A DNA stretch of 64,000 nucleotides, taken from Paenibacillus sp. E222 (lineage in GTDB: Bacteria; Bacillota; Bacilli; Paenibacillales; Paenibacillaceae). Under the pieces are notes generated by a model, which worked only from the letters and a program-made list of their open reading frames with translations, had not been told where the DNA came from and searched no databases. The position numbers and the translations under genes were made by a program. Of this stretch, positions 51,735 to 60,034 are shown piece after piece. Location: positions 3,720,001 through 3,784,000 of the forward strand of contig NZ_CP058552.1 in NCBI RefSeq assembly GCF_013401555.1, written 5' to 3'. The stretch's first letter is position 1, and every line of letters starts with the position of its first letter.

Positions 51735-52595
51735 ATGAAGAGAACGACTTTTTTCTGTACATACATAAATGAACTATACAATTCTCTGAAATATGTACAT
51801 AAATCACTTCAACATTCTATGCTTAGTTACAGACAATTCACCGGACTGCAAAAAATTATGCGTAATAGAATGCTTACTACATATTTTCAGCCAATTTTGA
51901 ATCTGCAGGACGGGCGATGTCTTGGATACGAGATATTAAACCGTCCTCCCATATCTGATCTTTTTCCAAATGCAGAATCTTTTTATCAATTCATTGGTCA
52001 TACGGATCAGGTGTTCACATTTGAACGCTTCTGTCGTGAGATTTCGATTGAAAGATTCAGAGACTCTTTAACTACAGAATGTTATCCCGACAGTACCGTT
52101 GTTTTTTTAAATATACATCCTCAAGTTTTAGCGGATTCTACTTACCGCAGCGGAGAAACAATCAGTCTATTGAACAGTTATGGTCTATCCCCTGAGCAAG
52201 TGGTCTTCGAGCTAACCGAAAAACAGGCAGTCCAGGACTATGTAGAATTCGAACGCATACTCTCGAATTATCGCTCACAGGGCTTTCGGATTGCCATTGA
52301 TGATGCGGGTTCCGGGTATAGCAGTCTGAAGGCGATTGTAAGTCTAAAACCTGATTTTATTAAATTGGACAGAGCGCTGATTAGTCGAGTGGATACACAT
52401 CCGGATCAGCAGCACATTGTTAGAATTCTTAAACAATTTGCTGTCGACTCGGGGACCAGTATCATCGCGGAAGGCATCGAGCGTTACGAGGAAATTCATT
52501 TTTTACGACGTGAAGGTATCGAATACGGTCAGGGTTACGCCCTTGGAAGGCCTGACACAGTATTAAGGCCGTCTCCCTTATCTTTTCCCGGGTAA
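51735..52595 (+). CDS. EAL-domain c-di-GMP phosphodiesterase
   Basis: 286 residues, almost entirely an EAL domain. Key residues are present: YEILNR (EAL variant E-I-L), FLNIHP (Asn), FELTEKQ (Glu), IDDAGSGYS (Asp pair), FIKLDR (Lys), AEGIE (Glu) and GYALGRP after GQ (Gln). So it is probably active in hydrolysing c-di-GMP to pGpG. No sensor domain or membrane helix is seen. It is followed after 19 bases by a GGDEF gene, suggesting a matched pair. ATG 51735 has AAGGAT upstream. Confidence 0.87.
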   Translation: MKRTTFFCTYINELYNSLKYVHKSLQHSMLSYRQFTGLQKIMRNRMLTTYFQPILNLQDGRCLGYEILNRPPISDLFPNAESFYQFIGHTDQVFTFERFCREISIERFRDSLTTECYPDSTVVFLNIHPQVLADSTYRSGETISLLNSYGLSPEQVVFELTEKQAVQDYVEFERILSNYRSQGFRIAIDDAGSGYSSLKAIVSLKPDFIKLDRALISRVDTHPDQQHIVRILKQFAVDSGTSIIAEGIERYEEIHFLRREGIEYGQGYALGRPDTVLRPSPLSFPG

Positions 52596-52614
52596 TTAAG
52601 GATTTAAAAAGTAG

Positions 52615-53595
52615 ATGGTATGGCTAGGTATAGAGGAGGCGAATGGTATATTTACGCAAATAGGTGAGATAGCCGATACGATTCCTGTAGTAGCGCCTGA
52701 AACAAAATGTGATATCGTCTACAATCTTTTTAAATCAAATCCCAATCTGGAAGGTGTGGCAGTTATGGGAGAACAAGGGGTGTCATTAATGATGCGAGCT
52801 CGTTTCTTCCAGCAGATTGGTACACAGTACGGCTATAATTTGTATATGGGACGCCCGGTGGAACTGGTTATGAACGCGCGGGCACTGGTTGTCGATTACG
52901 CTGAACAGATTACGGACGTAAGCGTTCTGGCTATGAATCGATCTGAAGAAGAGTTATACGATCTAGTGCTTATAACAGCTGAAGGCGTTTTGTATGGAGC
53001 AGTTAGTATCCGGCGTCTGCTGCTTGCTGTTGCGGATGTTCGAGCCGAGATGGCGATATTCATGAATCCCTTGACAGGTCTTCCAGGTAACCGAATTATA
53101 GATGAACGATTGGATCAGTTACTACAGCTTGATTATTTTAGTGTTCTATACATAGATTTGGATCACTTTAAATCCTACAATGATAGCTATGGGTTCAAAA
53201 TGGGGGATCAGCTTATTCAAGCTACTGCTAACCTGCTCCGGAAGCTTTTTGTTTTTCCAGAGGCTTTTCTTGGCCATATCGGTGGAGACGATTTTATTGT
53301 GATATTAAATCATCATGAATTTAGGCACGTTTGTGAAGAGGTGATAACAGGTTTTGAGCAGATCAAGGGAGCGTTTTACAATCAGGAGGACTTGGATAAA
53401 CAGTATGTTTTGGGCGAAGGGCGTTCTGGACTGAACCGAGCTATCCCGCTTGTATCGGTGTCGATCGCTGTGGTCACGAACCGTAGAAAACAGTATGAAA
53501 ACATTGATCAAATTGTGAGTGAGGCGACCCGGATTAAAAAAGTATGTAAATCGGTAAATGGCAGCATTATTTGTGGGAATGAGGAAGCCGTATAA
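52615..53595 (+). CDS. CBS-like/GGDEF diguanylate cyclase
   Basis: 326 residues. The N-terminal half (about 15-145) resembles a tandem CBS pair (IPVVAPETKCDIVYNLFKSN, LEGVAVMGEQGV, and LYGAVSIRRLLLAV). The C-terminal GGDEF domain begins MNPLTGLPGNR and has IGGDDF as the active site. No RxxD inhibitory site lies before it. It probably makes c-di-GMP and may sense a nucleotide through the CBS region. The start at 52615 has a poor ribosome site, while a good one (GAGGAGG, 52635-52641) lies 20 bases downstream and leads to no in-frame start codon, so translation initiation is uncertain. Confidence 0.82.
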   Translation: MVWLGIEEANGIFTQIGEIADTIPVVAPETKCDIVYNLFKSNPNLEGVAVMGEQGVSLMMRARFFQQIGTQYGYNLYMGRPVELVMNARALVVDYAEQITDVSVLAMNRSEEELYDLVLITAEGVLYGAVSIRRLLLAVADVRAEMAIFMNPLTGLPGNRIIDERLDQLLQLDYFSVLYIDLDHFKSYNDSYGFKMGDQLIQATANLLRKLFVFPEAFLGHIGGDDFIVILNHHEFRHVCEEVITGFEQIKGAFYNQEDLDKQYVLGEGRSGLNRAIPLVSVSIAVVTNRRKQYENIDQIVSEATRIKKVCKSVNGSIICGNEEAV

Positions 53596-54663: not shown

Positions 54664-55098
54664 ATGAGTGAAGGACTGTTTAGTCAATTTATTAGACGGA
54701 GTTGGGTTAATGAAATGTGGAATAATTATTACATACTCTGGAACTATGCTGCTGTGAGTATTGCGGATATACGTTATATGGAGTTAAGGCCAACTGAGGA
54801 GCTAACCTATAAATTTCCTGCGAGCACATTTGTGTTCACCATCCAGGGTAAAGCCTATGTGACCATAAACGACCAGAAGCATGAAGTGAGTCGTTTTTAT
54901 ATTCTCCATGGTGGAAAGGGAAGCGTGCTGCATATTGAAGCTGGACAATCCGGATTGAACCTGTTTTACCTTATGTACAAAGTAAGTCTGCCAAGTGGAG
55001 GAAGAACCGATTTGGGCAACATGATGGAGCACATGAACCCATTTCAGCTAACCTATGGTTTTGCCCCCAAGTCACCAATTGTGCTGTTGAGCAAGTAA
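54664..55098 (+). CDS. N-terminal fragment of AraC-type iron regulator (frameshifted)
   Basis: 144 residues aligning with residues 1-130 of the intact paralogue at 56859 (AAVSIADIRYMELR / AAVKILDIRRIVME; FYILHGGKGSVLHIEAG / FCILHGGKGSSLDIRVS; LTYGFAPKSPIVLL / LQYGFTPSNPLAIL). It is the ligand-binding N-terminal domain of a Btr-type regulator. After PIVLL the frame meets TAA at 55096-55098, but adding one base near 55090 restores a continuous frame into the next ORF (EQVKQIYTLWNQ) in perfect register with the paralogue. It is therefore a one-base-deleted part of a 669-residue gene, 54664-56672. Real mutation or sequencing error cannot be told apart. Confidence 0.75.
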   Translation: MSEGLFSQFIRRSWVNEMWNNYYILWNYAAVSIADIRYMELRPTEELTYKFPASTFVFTIQGKAYVTINDQKHEVSRFYILHGGKGSVLHIEAGQSGLNLFYLMYKVSLPSGGRTDLGNMMEHMNPFQLTYGFAPKSPIVLLSK

Positions 55099-55253
55099 AA
55101 CAGATATACACGTTATGGAATCAAAAGAACCCCATACATCATTTTCAGGCAAAAAGCCTGTTTTATCCTTTTGTAGAGCAAGTATCAGCACAAATTCCTC
55201 ATGCTGCATCTCGCTATTCCGTTACGGATCAGGTCAGCAAAGTCATCGAAATT

Positions 55254-56672
55254 GTGGAATCATCTTATGCGGAGCCATTGACGTTGCATGTTTTGGCAGA
55301 GAAGGTTGGCAGCAGTCCCAGAAGTCTGTCCCGCAAGTTTAAGCAGGCCACGGGTTATAGTCCAATCGATTATTTGATTCAGTTCCGTTTGTTCAAGGCC
55401 AAGGAGATGCTGCTGCATACCGACGCTACATTGGATGAGATTGCAGCAGGCATCGGTTATCCGGACGGATATTATCTGGGACGTATGTTCAAAAAACATA
55501 CAGGTGTTTCTCCACTTCAGTTCAAGGAGAAAACATCTGGACCCCTTAAATGGCCTGATCTGACATCGACCTTGGCGCGAAATGACATTTCCAGTGGAAG
55601 AGTGGGAAGGTATGTTTATAACGATGATGATAATCATTATCAATATAAACACGGAGGGTCATTGTACATGAATAGACAGACCAGAACGGGAATGCTGCTT
55701 AGTATTTTATTAAGTCTTACTTTACTGCTGAGTGCCTGCTCGCCAGGGGCAACTAGTAATTCTGTTGGAGAAACCGCCGGAAGAAATGGGACTTCGAGTG
55801 CCACCAGCACAGTAACGGCAGATAGCCAATCGAGCGCTCCCGTGCCTCGGATCATCTCGACAATTAAGGGAGATATCACGGTACCGGCTGAACCCAAGCG
55901 AATTGTAGTTGATTTATATTTGGGAAGCCTGATTGCTCTGGGAATCAAGCCAGTCGGTACACCGGAAATGAATCTGAAGAATCCGTATTTTATCAAATCA
56001 CTTGAGGGCGTAGAGAATATTGGTGAATACGAAACCATTTCTCTTGAAAAGGTATTGGAACTTCAACCAGACCTGATTGTCACGGGTGATCCTGATTTGT
56101 TTGATTCTTTTAGCAAAATTGCGCCTACGCTTGTTATTCCTTATGGAGAGTTGAAAAATACCCATGAAGAAATCGCTTATTTCGGTAAAGCGTTGAACAA
56201 AGAAAAAGAGGCTGAGTCATGGTTGGCCGACTACGACGGACGAATTGCGGATGCCAAGAAGCGTGTAAGTGAAGCAATCGACGCAGATGCAGAAGTATCC
56301 GTTATGCAATTTTACGATAAAGGACCGTTAGCCTTTGGTGATAATTTTGGGCGTGGAGGTCAGGCTGTGTACAGTGCTCTCGGATTGAATCCTCCGGCAG
56401 ACAAAAAAGAGATATTAATGAAAGATCAGCTTGTTGAAGTCTCGTCCGAATCCATACCCGAATTTGCCGGTGATTACATTATTCTTACGGCAGACAACCT
56501 AACTTTGGAGGAATTGAAATCCAAGCCAGTATGGAGTTCGCTTGATGCCGTTAAGAATGATCGTGTGTTTATCTGGAGTCCGGATCGTTCATGGTACTTT
56601 GACCCTATTGCAACGTTGGATCAGACCGAGGAATTGGCAGCTTGGTTCACGAAGACACCGGATCAAAAGTAA
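55254..56672 (+). CDS. AraC HTH plus siderophore-binding lipoprotein (second part of frameshifted fusion)
   Basis: 472 residues from GTG 55254, although the coding frame extends upstream to about 55091 (QAKSLFYPFVEQV and VTDQVSKVIEIVESS). The AraC double helix-turn-helix (LHVLAEKVGSSPRSLSRKFKQ ... FKKHTGVSPLQFKEK) fills residues 1-95. A 40-residue linker encoding a Fur box follows, then a full lipoprotein with signal helix and lipobox LLLSACS and a FeuA/FecB-type binding domain. No stop separates the two parts. The regulator part is disabled unless the frameshift is bypassed; the lipoprotein part can still be made from its own start. Confidence 0.8.
   Translation: MESSYAEPLTLHVLAEKVGSSPRSLSRKFKQATGYSPIDYLIQFRLFKAKEMLLHTDATLDEIAAGIGYPDGYYLGRMFKKHTGVSPLQFKEKTSGPLKWPDLTSTLARNDISSGRVGRYVYNDDDNHYQYKHGGSLYMNRQTRTGMLLSILLSLTLLLSACSPGATSNSVGETAGRNGTSSATSTVTADSQSSAPVPRIISTIKGDITVPAEPKRIVVDLYLGSLIALGIKPVGTPEMNLKNPYFIKSLEGVENIGEYETISLEKVLELQPDLIVTGDPDLFDSFSKIAPTLVIPYGELKNTHEEIAYFGKALNKEKEAESWLADYDGRIADAKKRVSEAIDADAEVSVMQFYDKGPLAFGDNFGRGGQAVYSALGLNPPADKKEILMKDQLVEVSSESIPEFAGDYIILTADNLTLEELKSKPVWSSLDAVKNDRVFIWSPDRSWYFDPIATLDQTEELAAWFTKTPDQK
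55628..55642 (+). promoter_or_regulatory. Perfect Fur box inside the first fusion gene
   Basis: TGATAATCATTATCA is an exact 7-1-7 Fur palindrome lying in the coding sequence of the linker, 26 bases before the internal lipoprotein start and just before GGAGGGTC. Confidence 0.85.
55668..56672 (+). CDS. Siderophore-binding lipoprotein from internal start, copy 1
   Basis: 334 residues from ATG 55668, in frame with the AraC part. GGAGGGTC lies at 55653-55660. Signal peptide with basic n-region MNRQTRTG, h-region LLSILLSLTLLLS and lipobox Cys in SACS; Ser/Thr-rich spacer; then a class III periplasmic-binding fold (RIISTIKGDITVPAEPKRIVV, LEKVLELQPDLIVTG). It would bind a ferri-siderophore at the cell surface. 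No FecCD-type permease is encoded nearby. It is intact in spite of the frameshift upstream. Confidence 0.8.
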   Translation: MNRQTRTGMLLSILLSLTLLLSACSPGATSNSVGETAGRNGTSSATSTVTADSQSSAPVPRIISTIKGDITVPAEPKRIVVDLYLGSLIALGIKPVGTPEMNLKNPYFIKSLEGVENIGEYETISLEKVLELQPDLIVTGDPDLFDSFSKIAPTLVIPYGELKNTHEEIAYFGKALNKEKEAESWLADYDGRIADAKKRVSEAIDADAEVSVMQFYDKGPLAFGDNFGRGGQAVYSALGLNPPADKKEILMKDQLVEVSSESIPEFAGDYIILTADNLTLEELKSKPVWSSLDAVKNDRVFIWSPDRSWYFDPIATLDQTEELAAWFTKTPDQK

Positions 56673-56722
56673 ATCTTTCGGATCATTGGTTGATGAAATT
56701 GAATCCTGGTCAAAATTCAGTT

Positions 56723-56741
56723 GATAATGAAAATTATTATC
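56723..56741 (+). promoter_or_regulatory. Fur box before the second fusion gene
   Basis: GATAATGAAAATTATTATC matches the 19-base Fur consensus GATAATGATAATCATTATC at 17 positions. It lies 118 bases before ATG 56859. Confidence 0.8.
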
Positions 56742-56858
56742 ATCTATAATGAAGGAATAATAGTGAACCACTATAATGCTCCGGTTAAGGATGGTTTGCA
56801 GAATAATGACCTGTACAAGGTCTTTGTTCCTGGTGAGACTGGGATTGGAGAGTAATCG

Positions 56859-58838
56859 ATGCAATTAAACGAACAGATGAATAGCTGGAATCATGCGGCT
56901 GTTAAAATTCTGGATATACGCCGGATCGTCATGGAGGCAGGGGAGATACAGGAGTCCTATTTGCTTCCGGCAAACGCTTTTATATACAGCATTCGGGGTG
57001 CAGCTCAACTTAAATTGGATGGGAAAACACACGAAGCACAGCGATTCTGTATTCTGCATGGTGGTAAAGGATCATCACTGGATATTCGGGTGAGCGAAAA
57101 GTTTGAATATTACTTGCTGTTCTACAGGGCATTCCTTGCGTTCCCAACTCATCGTAAAACATGGCGGTTGTCACAACCTCCTCAGATTGCTCCGTTCTCT
57201 TTGCAATATGGATTTACGCCGAGCAATCCTCTTGCTATATTGCGCTATTTTGAAGAACTGGAGAAAGCGTGGGATCAGGCGAGCAGACTGGACTTGCTAC
57301 AAGTAAAAAGTTTGTTCTACCAATTTATTCATGAGCTGTTGTTTCAATTGGCAGAGCAGGAAGTCAGAACAGTGCTTCCAGACCCTATTGAGCAAACACT
57401 TCGCTACATCCAGGAGCATTATAGGGAACAGGTGACTCTGGATTTTCTGGCTGAACAATTCAACTACAGCTCCCGTCATTTATCTATGCAATTTAAAAGA
57501 AAGACAGGACACAGTCCGATTGATTATCTCATTCAAACGAGACTGACCAAGGCCCGGAATCTGCTTGTGCGATCCGATGCCACCCTGCGCGAAATCGCGG
57601 CAGAAGTGGGATACACGGATGTGTATTATTTCAGCCGTATTTTCAAAAAACATGTGGGCCTGTCCCCCACACTCTATCAGCAGAAAATAAGGAACCAGAC
57701 CCTGGCAGAGGATCGTCCATTACAATTCTCCGAATCATCCATTGGCTGGAGATGGAAGCGAGGATATATTGATTATGAGAATCATTATCAATATATAGAC
57801 GGAGGGTCTACATCAATGAAAAGAAGAAAAACAAGCTCCAGCATGATTTTGGTTGCACTTTTAAGCATCACAATGCTTTTATCGGCATGCTCCGCTGGCT
57901 CTGCAACAACAACAGTTACGGGGGAAGGTACGAATACGAACTCATCTACGAGCACAGCCGCATCTTCATCATCAGATTCAGGTAGTCAAACGAACAATGA
58001 AAATGGAACACGCACGGTCTCCACGGTTAAAGGTGATGTTGTTGTCCCGGCAAATCCTAAACGGGTGGTTGTACTTTATCTTCAAGGAGATGTTGTAGCG
58101 CTTGGAATTAAGCCTATTGCGACGTCTGACGTATTTGATGGGGCTGCATATAAGAATGAGCTTGAAGGGGTAAATTCACTAGGCACCTGGTTCGAACCAA
58201 ACCCTGAGGCTGTCATTGATCTGGACCCGGATTTGATCATTGTTCCTTCAGAAGAGACTTACACGCTATTAAAAGATATTGCACCAACTGTGTATGTCCC
58301 ATATGAGAAAATGACAACGGAAGAAAGACTTCATAGTATCGCTAGCATTTTCGGCAAAGAACAGGAAGCAGACGTTTTAATCGACAATCTTAACAGTAAA
58401 GTTGAAGAGAGCAAGAAAAAACTTGCTGATGCAGGTATACTGGACAAAACGGCCTCCATCGTCGAGGGTGGGCTGAAAGAGATGGTCATTGTAGAAAGTA
58501 AGCAATACGGCCGAGGATCTCAGGCTATATACGAGTACTTGGAAATGAAAGCACCTGAAGCGGTCCAGAAAAAAATTGACGTCGTTTCCGACGCTGCAGG
58601 TTCGACCTTGTCCATGGAAGTTCTTCCTGAGTATATGGGAGACTACGTGTTTCGTTCGGTATATGAAGGGGCAGATAACCTTAACGATAATCCAATCTGG
58701 AATAGCATACCCGCTATCAAAGAAGGCCGTCTAATCGAGATTGATTTTGATTTCTTCTATTACTCGGATATCTATTCCATCAACAAGCAAATCGATTTTG
58801 TTGTCGAGCATCTACTCGCAGCTCCCAAAGTAAAGTAA
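56859..58838 (+). CDS. AraC regulator fused to siderophore-binding lipoprotein
   Basis: A single uninterrupted 659-residue frame. Residues 1-165 are the N-terminal domain of Btr/YbbB-type regulators (FCILHGGKGSSLDIRVS). About 170-275 are an AraC double HTH (VTLDFLAEQFNYSSRHLSMQF ... FKKHVGLSPTLYQQK). Residues 295-319 are a linker encoded by a Fur box and a Shine-Dalgarno site. Residue 320 is an ATG starting a lipoprotein with lipobox LLSACS and a FeuA/FecB-like binding domain. Btr of B. subtilis also joins AraC and binding-protein domains but is cytoplasmic; here a membrane helix and lipobox lie between, so the full product would be a membrane-tethered regulator with an external sensor. GGAGAG precedes ATG 56859. 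Confidence 0.85.
   Translation: MQLNEQMNSWNHAAVKILDIRRIVMEAGEIQESYLLPANAFIYSIRGAAQLKLDGKTHEAQRFCILHGGKGSSLDIRVSEKFEYYLLFYRAFLAFPTHRKTWRLSQPPQIAPFSLQYGFTPSNPLAILRYFEELEKAWDQASRLDLLQVKSLFYQFIHELLFQLAEQEVRTVLPDPIEQTLRYIQEHYREQVTLDFLAEQFNYSSRHLSMQFKRKTGHSPIDYLIQTRLTKARNLLVRSDATLREIAAEVGYTDVYYFSRIFKKHVGLSPTLYQQKIRNQTLAEDRPLQFSESSIGWRWKRGYIDYENHYQYIDGGSTSMKRRKTSSSMILVALLSITMLLSACSAGSATTTVTGEGTNTNSSTSTAASSSSDSGSQTNNENGTRTVSTVKGDVVVPANPKRVVVLYLQGDVVALGIKPIATSDVFDGAAYKNELEGVNSLGTWFEPNPEAVIDLDPDLIIVPSEETYTLLKDIAPTVYVPYEKMTTEERLHSIASIFGKEQEADVLIDNLNSKVEESKKKLADAGILDKTASIVEGGLKEMVIVESKQYGRGSQAIYEYLEMKAPEAVQKKIDVVSDAAGSTLSMEVLPEYMGDYVFRSVYEGADNLNDNPIWNSIPAIKEGRLIEIDFDFFYYSDIYSINKQIDFVVEHLLAAPKVK
57776..57790 (+). 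promoter_or_regulatory. Fur box inside the second fusion gene
   Basis: TGAGAATCATTATCA, one mismatch from the 7-1-7 consensus, is coding DNA for the linker (ENHYQY) and lies 25 bases before the internal ATG 57816. Confidence 0.8.
57816..58838 (+). CDS. Siderophore-binding lipoprotein from internal start, copy 2
   Basis: 340 residues from ATG 57816 with GGAGGGTC at 57801-57808. Signal peptide MKRRKTSSS plus h-region ILVALLSITMLLS and lipobox Cys in SACS, Ser/Thr/Asn-rich spacer, then a TroA-like binding domain (TVKGDVVVPANPKRVVV ... PEAVIDLDPDLIIVPS). It would act as a free surface receptor for iron-siderophore. It is a diverged paralogue of the copy-1 lipoprotein. Separate production from this start is inferred from the embedded Fur box and ribosome site. 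Confidence 0.8.
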   Translation: MKRRKTSSSMILVALLSITMLLSACSAGSATTTVTGEGTNTNSSTSTAASSSSDSGSQTNNENGTRTVSTVKGDVVVPANPKRVVVLYLQGDVVALGIKPIATSDVFDGAAYKNELEGVNSLGTWFEPNPEAVIDLDPDLIIVPSEETYTLLKDIAPTVYVPYEKMTTEERLHSIASIFGKEQEADVLIDNLNSKVEESKKKLADAGILDKTASIVEGGLKEMVIVESKQYGRGSQAIYEYLEMKAPEAVQKKIDVVSDAAGSTLSMEVLPEYMGDYVFRSVYEGADNLNDNPIWNSIPAIKEGRLIEIDFDFFYYSDIYSINKQIDFVVEHLLAAPKVK

Positions 58839-58935: not shown

Positions 58936-58954
58936 GATAATGAGAATCGATATC
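58936..58954 (+). promoter_or_regulatory. Fur box before the ferredoxin-NADP reductase gene
   Basis: GATAATGAGAATCGATATC, close to the 19-base Fur consensus, 43 bases before ATG 58997. Confidence 0.75.
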
Positions 58955-58996
58955 AAATAGTCGAGTGGTTTGGATCGAACTGATGGAGGTAACTAC

Positions 58997-60034
58997 ATGG
59001 ATCAGCATTTGGAATTATATGATGTAACAATTATCGGCGGGGGACCTGCCGGCATGTATTCTGCATTTTACAGCGGGATGCGTGATATGAAGACCAAGTT
59101 GATTGAGGCGAAGGATAGATTGGGTGGTCGCATGCTCTTTTATCCAGAGAAAATGATCTGGGACGTTGGCGGCGTTACCCCGATTCTGTGTGAAAATTTG
59201 ATTAAACAGCTGGAAGAACAGGCGAGAACGTTTGAGCCAACGATTGTGTTCGAACAGCAAATTGAAGGATTCAAACGTCAGCCTGATGGCACAATTCTGC
59301 TGACATCGCATACAGGAGAACAACACTGGACACGTACCGTCATATTGGCGATCGGGTATGGTATATATAAAATGGCCAAACTGGAGCTTGAAGGCGCTGA
59401 CCGTTATGAGGTTACGAACCTTCACTACACAGTACAGGAGCTTGAACCTTTCCGTGGCAAACGGGTACTGATCTCTGGTGGGGGTGACTCCGCTGTCGAT
59501 TGGGCCAATGAGCTTGAAGCACTGGCAGAACAAGTGACGGTGGTGCATCGTCGTGACCGCTTTGGTGGATTGGAGCGCAATGTACTGCGGATGAGAGAAT
59601 CCTCAGTAGATATTCGGACACCATACGCCGTTGATACCCTACATAGTCAAAGTGGTGAGATCATCGAACAGGTGACGATATCCCATGTTGAGACAGGTGA
59701 GAGTGAAGTTCTTGATGTGGATGCGATTATCGTCAACCATGGCATGAAGAGTGATTTTGGCCCGATCCGGGATTGGGGACTTGATCTTGGTGAATGGCAT
59801 GTCACCACAACAGAGAAGCTGCAAACGAATATTCCAGGCGTCTTCGCTGCAGGAGACTTTGTAGATTATGGAAGTAAACTGTATCTGATTGCTGGTACAT
59901 TTACGGATGCGGCCCTCGCGGTAAACAGTGCAAAACTGTATATGGACCCTGAGGCAGAGAAAGTTGCCTATGTGTCTTCCCATAACAGCCGTTTCAAGGA
60001 GAAAAATAAAGCACTTGGTGTTGTGGAAGAATAG
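58997..60034 (+). CDS. Ferredoxin/flavodoxin-NADP reductase (YumC type)
   Basis: 345 residues from ATG 58997, seven bases after GGAGGT (58985-58990). Thioredoxin-reductase-like fold without the CxxC: FAD motif [16 protein letters not shown] near the N-terminus, NADPH motif [15 protein letters not shown], and a second FAD motif [15 protein letters not shown]. It passes electrons from NADPH to ferredoxin or flavodoxin. The Fur box suggests it is induced on iron starvation and may help reduce the iron released from siderophores, which is an inference. A terminator follows at 60077-60113. Confidence 0.9.

Follow-up and report, generated by a model that had tools for sequence, protein, structure and literature searches.

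An AraC-type regulator and a siderophore-receptor lipoprotein share one frame in Paenibacillus, with a conserved Fur box, internal start and putative operator inside the coding sequence

In a stretch of 64,000 nucleotides from Paenibacillus sp. E222 (NCBI RefSeq assembly GCF_013401555.1, contig NZ_CP058552.1, positions 3,720,001 to 3,784,000; hereafter the window, in whose numbering all coordinates are given), the gene at 56859-58838 on the plus strand is an uninterrupted frame of 659 codons, as seen in the open reading frame (ORF) listing and its translation, that joins an AraC-type regulator, a membrane helix with a lipobox and a FhuD-like siderophore receptor and is conserved at full length. 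Its likely products are two: the first start would give a membrane-tethered sensor-regulator, and a predicted internal promoter would give a free siderophore receptor, whose production the sensor would induce. The two products, their topology and export orientation, sensing, ligand binding, promoter activity and activation are what we infer from the sequence of the gene and its homologues. All elements of the gene and of its adjacent paralogue described below lie on the plus strand.

Pfam placed an AraC-type helix-turn-helix (HTH) domain, HTH_18, at residues 197-275 (57447-57683) and Peripla_BP_2 at residues 429-630, both above their cut-offs. With 81 bits for HTH_18 (cut-off 33.6) and 61.2 bits for HTH_AraC (cut-off 26.6) the first half belongs to the AraC/XylS regulators, while 73.8 bits for Peripla_BP_2 (cut-off 27.5) and a structural match to FhuD2 (4b8y, TMt 0.85) assign the second half to the class III (FhuD-like) binding proteins, including their lipobox, here LSAC closing on Cys344 (codon 57888-57890) after the signal helix. 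A model predicted from a 41-sequence alignment, made up of the window protein and 40 of 120 listed database proteins chosen for spread and not for a lipobox, had a mean predicted local distance difference test score (pLDDT) of 81 and a predicted template modelling score (pTM) of 0.45. It was laid out as a beta-rich N-terminal domain (residues 13-119, 56895-57215, assigned from the model secondary structure and lying inside the stretch that aligns with the Btr family model discussed below), an HTH region (176-284), disorder (284-325), a hydrophobic helix (327-343), further disorder (345-382) and a class III binding-protein fold (384-654, 58008-58820), and its top-ranked PDB matches were FhuD2 and FhuD proteins. 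The helix together with Cys344 occupies 57837-57890, and Leu341, Ala343 and Cys344 are present in 41/41 database proteins. The stop-free run from an AraC regulator into a lipoprotein with signal helix and lipobox, which the initial annotation had claimed, was thus confirmed by the ORF, by both Pfam domains and by the located Cys344 codon. The CadC/ToxR-like layout proposed there is compatible with the predicted model, which has a single helix (327-343) between the AraC half and the FhuD-like half; given a pTM of just 0.45, however, the placement of the domains, and hence the topology, is left unsettled by the model.

Four fused genes were found in the genome itself: the window gene, two full-length paralogues (35% identity) and an adjacent copy with a broken AraC half. 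Matches to the window protein at E <= 1e-70 occurred in 61 of 75 genomes of the genus, with a maximum of 12 per genome, and matches at E <= 1e-50 occurred in 133 of 295 family genomes (12 of 19 genera) and in 43 of 398 class genomes (11 of 145 genera); a few of the latter two sets of matches span a single half. One stop within the match was found in four genus rows and two family rows among the matches listed, and in eight rows of the class search. Six of these eight carried TAA and came from a single other family (f23; L106-L108 and L113-L115), and all six turned out to be intact frames of 675-695 aa once fetched; for L106 the TAA was located, and there the match reaches the normal stop codon. 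The remaining two class rows were an intact 663-aa frame (L111) and a broken copy (L130).

Both halves lay in one frame at 205 of 209 loci. The other four comprised two that are also one frame, with a receptor half below the 60-bit cut (L133, L134), and two with breaks after the lipobox or in the N-domain (L121, L130), none of which falls between the HTH and the start. Because the 209 loci had been chosen through full-length matches, an extra search was run with the AraC half alone. At E <= 1e-40 it returned 33 matches in 11 of 40 genomes. Of these, 30 lay inside frames of 625-731 aa, and none belonged to a regulator standing alone at a length of about 290 aa. The three matches outside such frames were two copies broken in the receptor half and one decayed copy (L237). 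In the same 40 genomes the receptor half resembled many stand-alone lipoproteins at up to 38% identity, and all seven receptor-half matches of at least 58% identity lay in frames as long as those of fused genes. Frameshifts or stops interrupt a minority of copies, some in the AraC half and some in the receptor half (L237, L238, L239, L121, L130, L158, L163 and L222). An assembly or annotation artefact was considered and rejected, the same frame being found in named isolates (22 loci, all within the 209) and in public protein sets.

For the junction itself, 221 distinct frames were reduced, through 214 that pass a lipobox rule, to 75 representatives of at least 600 aa and less than 70% identity. 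Between the HTH and the internal start the coding frame was stop-free in 75/75 representatives, the +1 frame in 21/75 and the +2 frame in 0/75, over a distance of 24 to 55 codons for which 16 distinct lengths were observed. The junction of 24 codons in the initial annotation was an underestimate, since this distance averages about 45 codons. A stop or frameshift at the junction in most strains, the outcome named beforehand as speaking against the fusion, was sought and was absent from the 209 loci, the AraC-half search and the 75 representatives alike, and the same three sets led us to reject an open frame by chance. Twelve distinct Btr-like ORFs with an AraC HTH match (ten from the same genome, one from G523 and one from G650; 13 rows, one a cut duplicate) served as a control. 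Seven of the twelve have a Fur box of at least 14/19 located 53-79 nt past their own stop codon, indicating that a control region alone does not demand an open frame. Across the homologues compared, the fusion and its stop-free junction are conserved.

Helix and lipobox were found by rule in 212 of the 221 distinct frames, and the n-region was net positive in 67 of the 75 representatives. The Cys is present in all 75 representatives by construction, so that the weight of lipobox conservation rests on the 212/221 frames and on the 41/41 database proteins.

The junction holds a 19-bp Fur box at 57771-57789, which forms an in-frame part of the peptide YIDYENHYQY and matches GATAATGATAATCATTATC, which we take to be the 19-bp Fur consensus, at 17/19; the Fur-type palindrome claimed earlier at 57776-57790 was found again in this box. 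Among the 75 representatives the junction box scored 16.3/19 on average, whereas the top-scoring site in the rest of each frame averaged 12.2. It reached at least 14/19 in 70, occupied the same codon register in 73 (and in all 70 at that score), and in 49 of the 70 ended exactly 26 nt ahead of the start. The family peptide, YIDNDNHYQY, is the Fur box translated plus two flanking codons, and its codon choice was skewed (GAT 46/46, AAT 60/62, TAT 60/62 and CAA 51/54, against backgrounds of 0.71, 0.66, 0.71 and 0.49), the weakest preference being that of the last Tyr (TAT 33/40). Synonymous divergence (pS) in 37 orthologues was 0.000 at codons 303-312, the lowest stretch of a gene with a median of 0.545. 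The lowest or joint-lowest five-codon pS fell in the Fur-box codons in the window group and in seven of the eight ortholog clusters examined besides it; the remaining cluster (L106), at 95% identity, was too uniform to inform on pS. On pooled codon choice and pS, peptide conservation as the sole cause of the Fur box was rejected.

Downstream of the box, the Shine-Dalgarno site GGAGGG (57801-57806) and the lipoprotein ATG at 57816 stand in the junction as had been described, opening a reading of 57816-58838 for a precursor of 340 aa whose Met is present in 41/41 database proteins. A start codon occupied the aligned lipoprotein-start column in 72 of the 75 representatives (ATG in 65, GTG for 5/5 Val and TTG for 2/2 Leu), and the Shine-Dalgarno match length averaged 4.65 at the internal start compared with 2.99 at 566 other ATG codons. 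The start counts use the aligned column, while the 26-nt distance and the comparison with 566 ATG codons take the start as the furthest ATG upstream of the Cys. By these measures the Fur box and the internal start are constrained at the DNA level. Around the Fur box we predict an internal promoter, P2 (57769-57797), with TTGATT at 57769-57774, a 17-bp spacer and TATATA at 57792-57797. Family consensus hexamers like TTGATA and TATAAA, 17 bp apart, flank the box, and in the 70 representatives with a Fur score of at least 14, which were used for both the hexamer and the repeat tests, the summed hexamer match of 7.23 of 12 at the P2 register was the highest of 25 offsets.

A further element lies within the coding sequence, between the HTH codons and P2. 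Two additional synonymous dips, about 51 and 60 codons ahead of the lipobox Cys, recur in several ortholog clusters and in the window cover the copies of a direct repeat, ATCGTCCATT (57712-57721) and ATCATCCATT (57734-57743), set 22 bp apart. The mean best 8-mer self-match was 6.33 at shift 22 and 3.8-4.8 at all other shifts from 9 to 39; a self-match of at least 7/8 occurred at shift 22 in 30 of 70 representatives and in 0-2 of 70 at other shifts from 15 to 29. In a control stretch from the HTH none reached 7/8 at shift 22, and at most five did so at any shift from 15 to 29. Compared over 12 letters at shift 22, 53 of 70 representatives had at least 8 matches, as did 4.9% of shuffles. Subfamilies differ in the letters of the repeat, whose two copies nevertheless tend to match each other, and distances in the repeat zone correlate with those of the HTH at 0.54, with those of the N-domain at 0.25 and with those of the receptor at 0.29. 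AraC/XylS regulators typically bind a direct repeat about two helical turns apart. Given self-match, codon constraint and HTH correlation, the direct repeat is likely the operator of the encoded AraC protein. Upstream of the first promoter, P1, the 22-bp repeat was not raised in 37 zones, and an operator there was rejected. The position of the repeat before P2, with none upstream of P1, suggests that P2 rather than P1 would be the induced promoter.

P1, the predicted promoter of the whole gene (56721-56750), combines TTGATA (56721-56726), a Fur box at 56723-56741 (17/19) and TATAAT (56745-56750) with an 18-bp spacer. A Fur box of at least 14/19 was found upstream of the gene in 43 of 75 representatives and, as a control, downstream of the ORF in 6 of 75. 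The P1 Fur box with its hexamers, the 22-bp repeat and the adjacent paralogue had not been part of the initial annotation. The receptor half for its part carries Glu450 and Glu587, which align with Glu of FhuD2 and are invariant in 75/75 representatives; such residues presumably dock the permease. A FecCD permease gene directly follows on the same strand in 19 of the 217 frames with enough downstream sequence and in 10 of the 75 representatives. In one genome (G086) two permease genes stand behind the fused gene with no other receptor gene between, so that the fused gene there would have to supply the receptor.

We lean, if only slightly, towards a self-contained induction circuit in one frame, in which an extracellular sensor, a DNA-binding domain, its operator, a Fur switch, a promoter and a receptor that is the second half of the sensor act together. 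In the course of events that we consider most likely, Fur would leave both P1 and P2 upon iron starvation. The full-length protein made from P1 would be scarce and would span the membrane through its lipobox helix, keeping the HTH in the cell and exposing the receptor; since there is no stop in the frame, a message from P1 must be read through. Once a ferric siderophore occupies the outer receptor domain, the AraC domain would attach to the 22-bp repeat of the gene that encodes it and switch on P2, from which the free lipoprotein would be made in much larger amount, together with the permease where a FecCD gene directly follows. Such a circuit would boost a receptor only when its own ligand is at hand, and a signal peptidase II cut of the full-length chain at the lipobox would end signalling.

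Several observations weigh against the two-product reading and its circuit. When single genes were resampled synonymously, just 15 of 75 were significant at 0.05; this is the weaker test, as codon choice is already limited by the peptide. Five of 75 representatives are without a clear Fur box at the junction, and the start codon is missing at the aligned column in 3 of 75. The P2 hexamers are imperfect: 10 of 70 representatives have 5/6 at the -35, 22 of 70 have at least 5/6 at the -10, and the score at one other register comes close (6.77 vs 7.23 of 12). The P1 Fur boxes, at least 14/19 in the 43 of 75 given above, are weaker. At shift 22, 17 of 70 representatives fall below 8/12, and because the repeat adjoins the HTH codons, shared descent may raise their correlation without binding. 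In its own genome the repeat pattern is exact only at its own gene, with five other sites at 3 mismatches compared with one in a reversed control; no wider regulon was seen in this search, and a wider regulon of the window regulator was rejected on it. Neither the window gene nor 198 of the 217 fused genes has an adjacent FecCD gene, and with no permease nearby the window receptor would share one encoded elsewhere. The conserved lipobox would allow signal peptidase to cut the full-length protein. Finally, the two halves are only loosely congruent, with a distance correlation of 0.33 (permuted maximum 0.20), which does not show a fixed pairing of sensor and ligand.

Strict co-inheritance of the halves was rejected on this correlation, and the halves are, as far as these distances tell, partly exchanged across the junction. 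In one member (L202) the AraC half is 59% identical to that of the window gene and the receptor 31%; a large identity mismatch between halves was also observed in L089, L211 and L111. Four members (L123, L131, L132 and L133) have lost helix and lipobox, although HYQ from the Fur-box peptide survives in three. In the receptor-half tree all four sit, with support of 100/100, in a clade of seven that also includes two members with the helix and one Btr-like protein. This suggests that, at least in this group, the membrane form can give rise to cytoplasmic regulators of the Btr kind. Only the placement of the helix-less members is used here, as a length rule assigned the label Btr to two rows (L239_549 and L022_551) that are in fact frame-broken copies with a helix, and these inflate counts of label change.

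The same lipobox gives rise to a different explanation, in which the full-length chain is inserted, lipidated and cut, so that all of the receptor is freed, the AraC half stays on a membrane stub or is released by proteolysis, and cleavage itself is the signal. The presence of helix and lipobox in 212/221 frames, and of Ala343-Cys344 in 41/41 database proteins that were not picked for a lipobox, would fit such a pro-protein switch. The product of the internal start already requires the lipobox, however, so that its conservation does not single out this route, and the route has to assume lipidation and cleavage behind a cytoplasmic domain of 300 residues; we regard the switch as unlikely.

Absence of a stop could also be a passive result of DNA constraint on the operator and Fur box, with only a separate regulator and a separate lipoprotein being of consequence. 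The stretch ahead of the ATG is indeed strongly constrained as DNA, and one reading of the Fur palindrome contains stops, so that only some registers can be open. By contrast, linkers of 16 lengths are stop-free throughout while the other frames are closed in 54/75 and 75/75, seven of the twelve Btr-like relatives carry their downstream Fur box after a stop, and a stop-less P1 message must be read through, all of which makes a double-coding by-product very unlikely. Finally, Btr is thought to sense an imported siderophore in the cytoplasm, and the full-length protein could do likewise, the helix then serving only the internal lipoprotein. Btr being the best NCBIfam match, and the four helix-less members grouping with a Btr-like protein at 100/100, argue for this possibility; helix and lipobox in 212/221 frames and a net positive n-region in 67/75 form a strong export signal whose losses are few, and they render a cytoplasmic sensor of this kind highly improbable.

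Compared with known systems, the closest regulator is Btr (YbbB), the bacillibactin regulator of Bacillus subtilis, which shares a homologous AraC half. The NCBIfam Btr model, NF049932, was the best match of the window protein, at 121.9 bits, far below its equivalog cut-off of 900, with an alignment confined to the AraC half (model positions 9-270 of 531). An AraC HTH followed by Peripla_BP_2 in one chain is shared with Btr, while the window gene has a helix and lipobox where Btr is not known to carry an export signal or a membrane helix between its halves. For the AraC half, the initial annotation was right to name Btr as a relative. The receptor half, moreover, is itself a translatable lipoprotein here, whereas feuA is a separate gene in the Btr system. 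With CadC/ToxR the window protein would share, on the predicted model, an N-terminal DNA-binding domain, one membrane helix and a C-terminal sensor outside. CadC and ToxR use a winged-helix (OmpR-type) DNA-binding domain; here DNA binding is of the AraC type (HTH_18 / HTH_AraC), the sensor is a class III binding protein, and the helix carries a lipobox. FhuD, FhuD2 and FtsB lipoproteins gave the best PDB sequence and fold matches of the receptor half, and the two invariant Glu align with Glu of FhuD2; they differ from the window protein in that the latter is fused in frame to a regulator. By analogy with FecA-FecR-FecI surface signalling of Gram-negative bacteria, the window protein would report an outside ferric siderophore to the transcription of its receptor, using one protein in place of a receptor, an anti-sigma and a sigma factor.

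Parts of this picture are in print. One report describes Btr as having a FeuA-like sensory domain (PMC9609785), and in another a ybbB regulator lies upstream of feuA in B. pumilus (PMC3896406). A 2026 survey found another domain in 229 of 6,023 siderophore-cluster PBP2 genes, with HTH_18 in 98.7% of those (PMC13293324, Table 1). Of the genera that the survey compared, Paenibacillus had the most receptor genes relative to siderophore clusters, at a ratio of 29.43. Its main text does not contain the terms Btr, fused, fusion or lipobox. Searches of the open-licence literature (titles and the starts of abstracts), several of them narrow, did not find the membrane-helix AraC-receptor fusion, its internal start or the in-frame operator. 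The pairing of domains is hence already known, while the membrane helix, the internal start and the in-frame operator appear to be new.

Upstream of the window gene, the adjacent paralogue (54664-56672; ORFs and profile matches) has the same build. Its AraC half is frame-broken, around 55035-55098, and is intact in relatives; its junction, a Fur box at 55623-55641 (18/19), the internal start and the lipoprotein remain intact in one frame. An intact receptor unit after an AraC break is as expected if the receptor has its own promoter. Next after the fused gene comes one for a flavoprotein (58970-60034) that resembles thioredoxin reductase or ferredoxin-NADP reductase; this gene has a separate Fur box at 58936-58954 (16/19), and a similar flavoprotein start (MYDVTIVGGGPAGL..., by eye) closes the cluster of a distant fused gene in L245, behind two FecCD genes. 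In PMC3896406, B. pumilus bpj08410-bpj08440 comprises genes labelled Fur-regulated and induced by peroxide. One encodes a ferredoxin-NADP reductase; the others encode an HTH-type regulator, a binding protein and a permease, and for these three products the authors could find no significantly homologous protein among those known from related Bacillus. This group looks like an unfused counterpart of the window cluster. Adjacent genes with an EAL domain and a GGDEF domain lie at 51735-53595, upstream of the fusion pair.

Taken as a whole, the interpretation put forward in the initial annotation is supported in part: the fusion is conserved, the internal start, Shine-Dalgarno site and Fur box are constrained at the DNA level, and the likeness to Btr applies to the AraC half, that to CadC/ToxR being a prediction. 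The proposed double role is hidden in database annotation, where 'AraC family transcriptional regulator' is the commonest name for these proteins, if they are named at all; in some entries they appear as 'ABC transporter' or as 'iron complex transport system substrate-binding protein'. If the proposed circuit is true, it would be a one-protein Gram-positive counterpart of siderophore surface signalling, with regulator, operator, promoter and receptor in one frame, and its more than 200 distinct copies, as many as 12 of them in a single genome, would amount to a natural library of AraC regulators that carry their own operator and ligand receptor. A putative operator at a known place in most members (53/70 at 8/12 or better) would make the recognition code of AraC helices readable at scale, and such an operator code could predict which receptor is controlled by each sensor in receptor-rich genomes.

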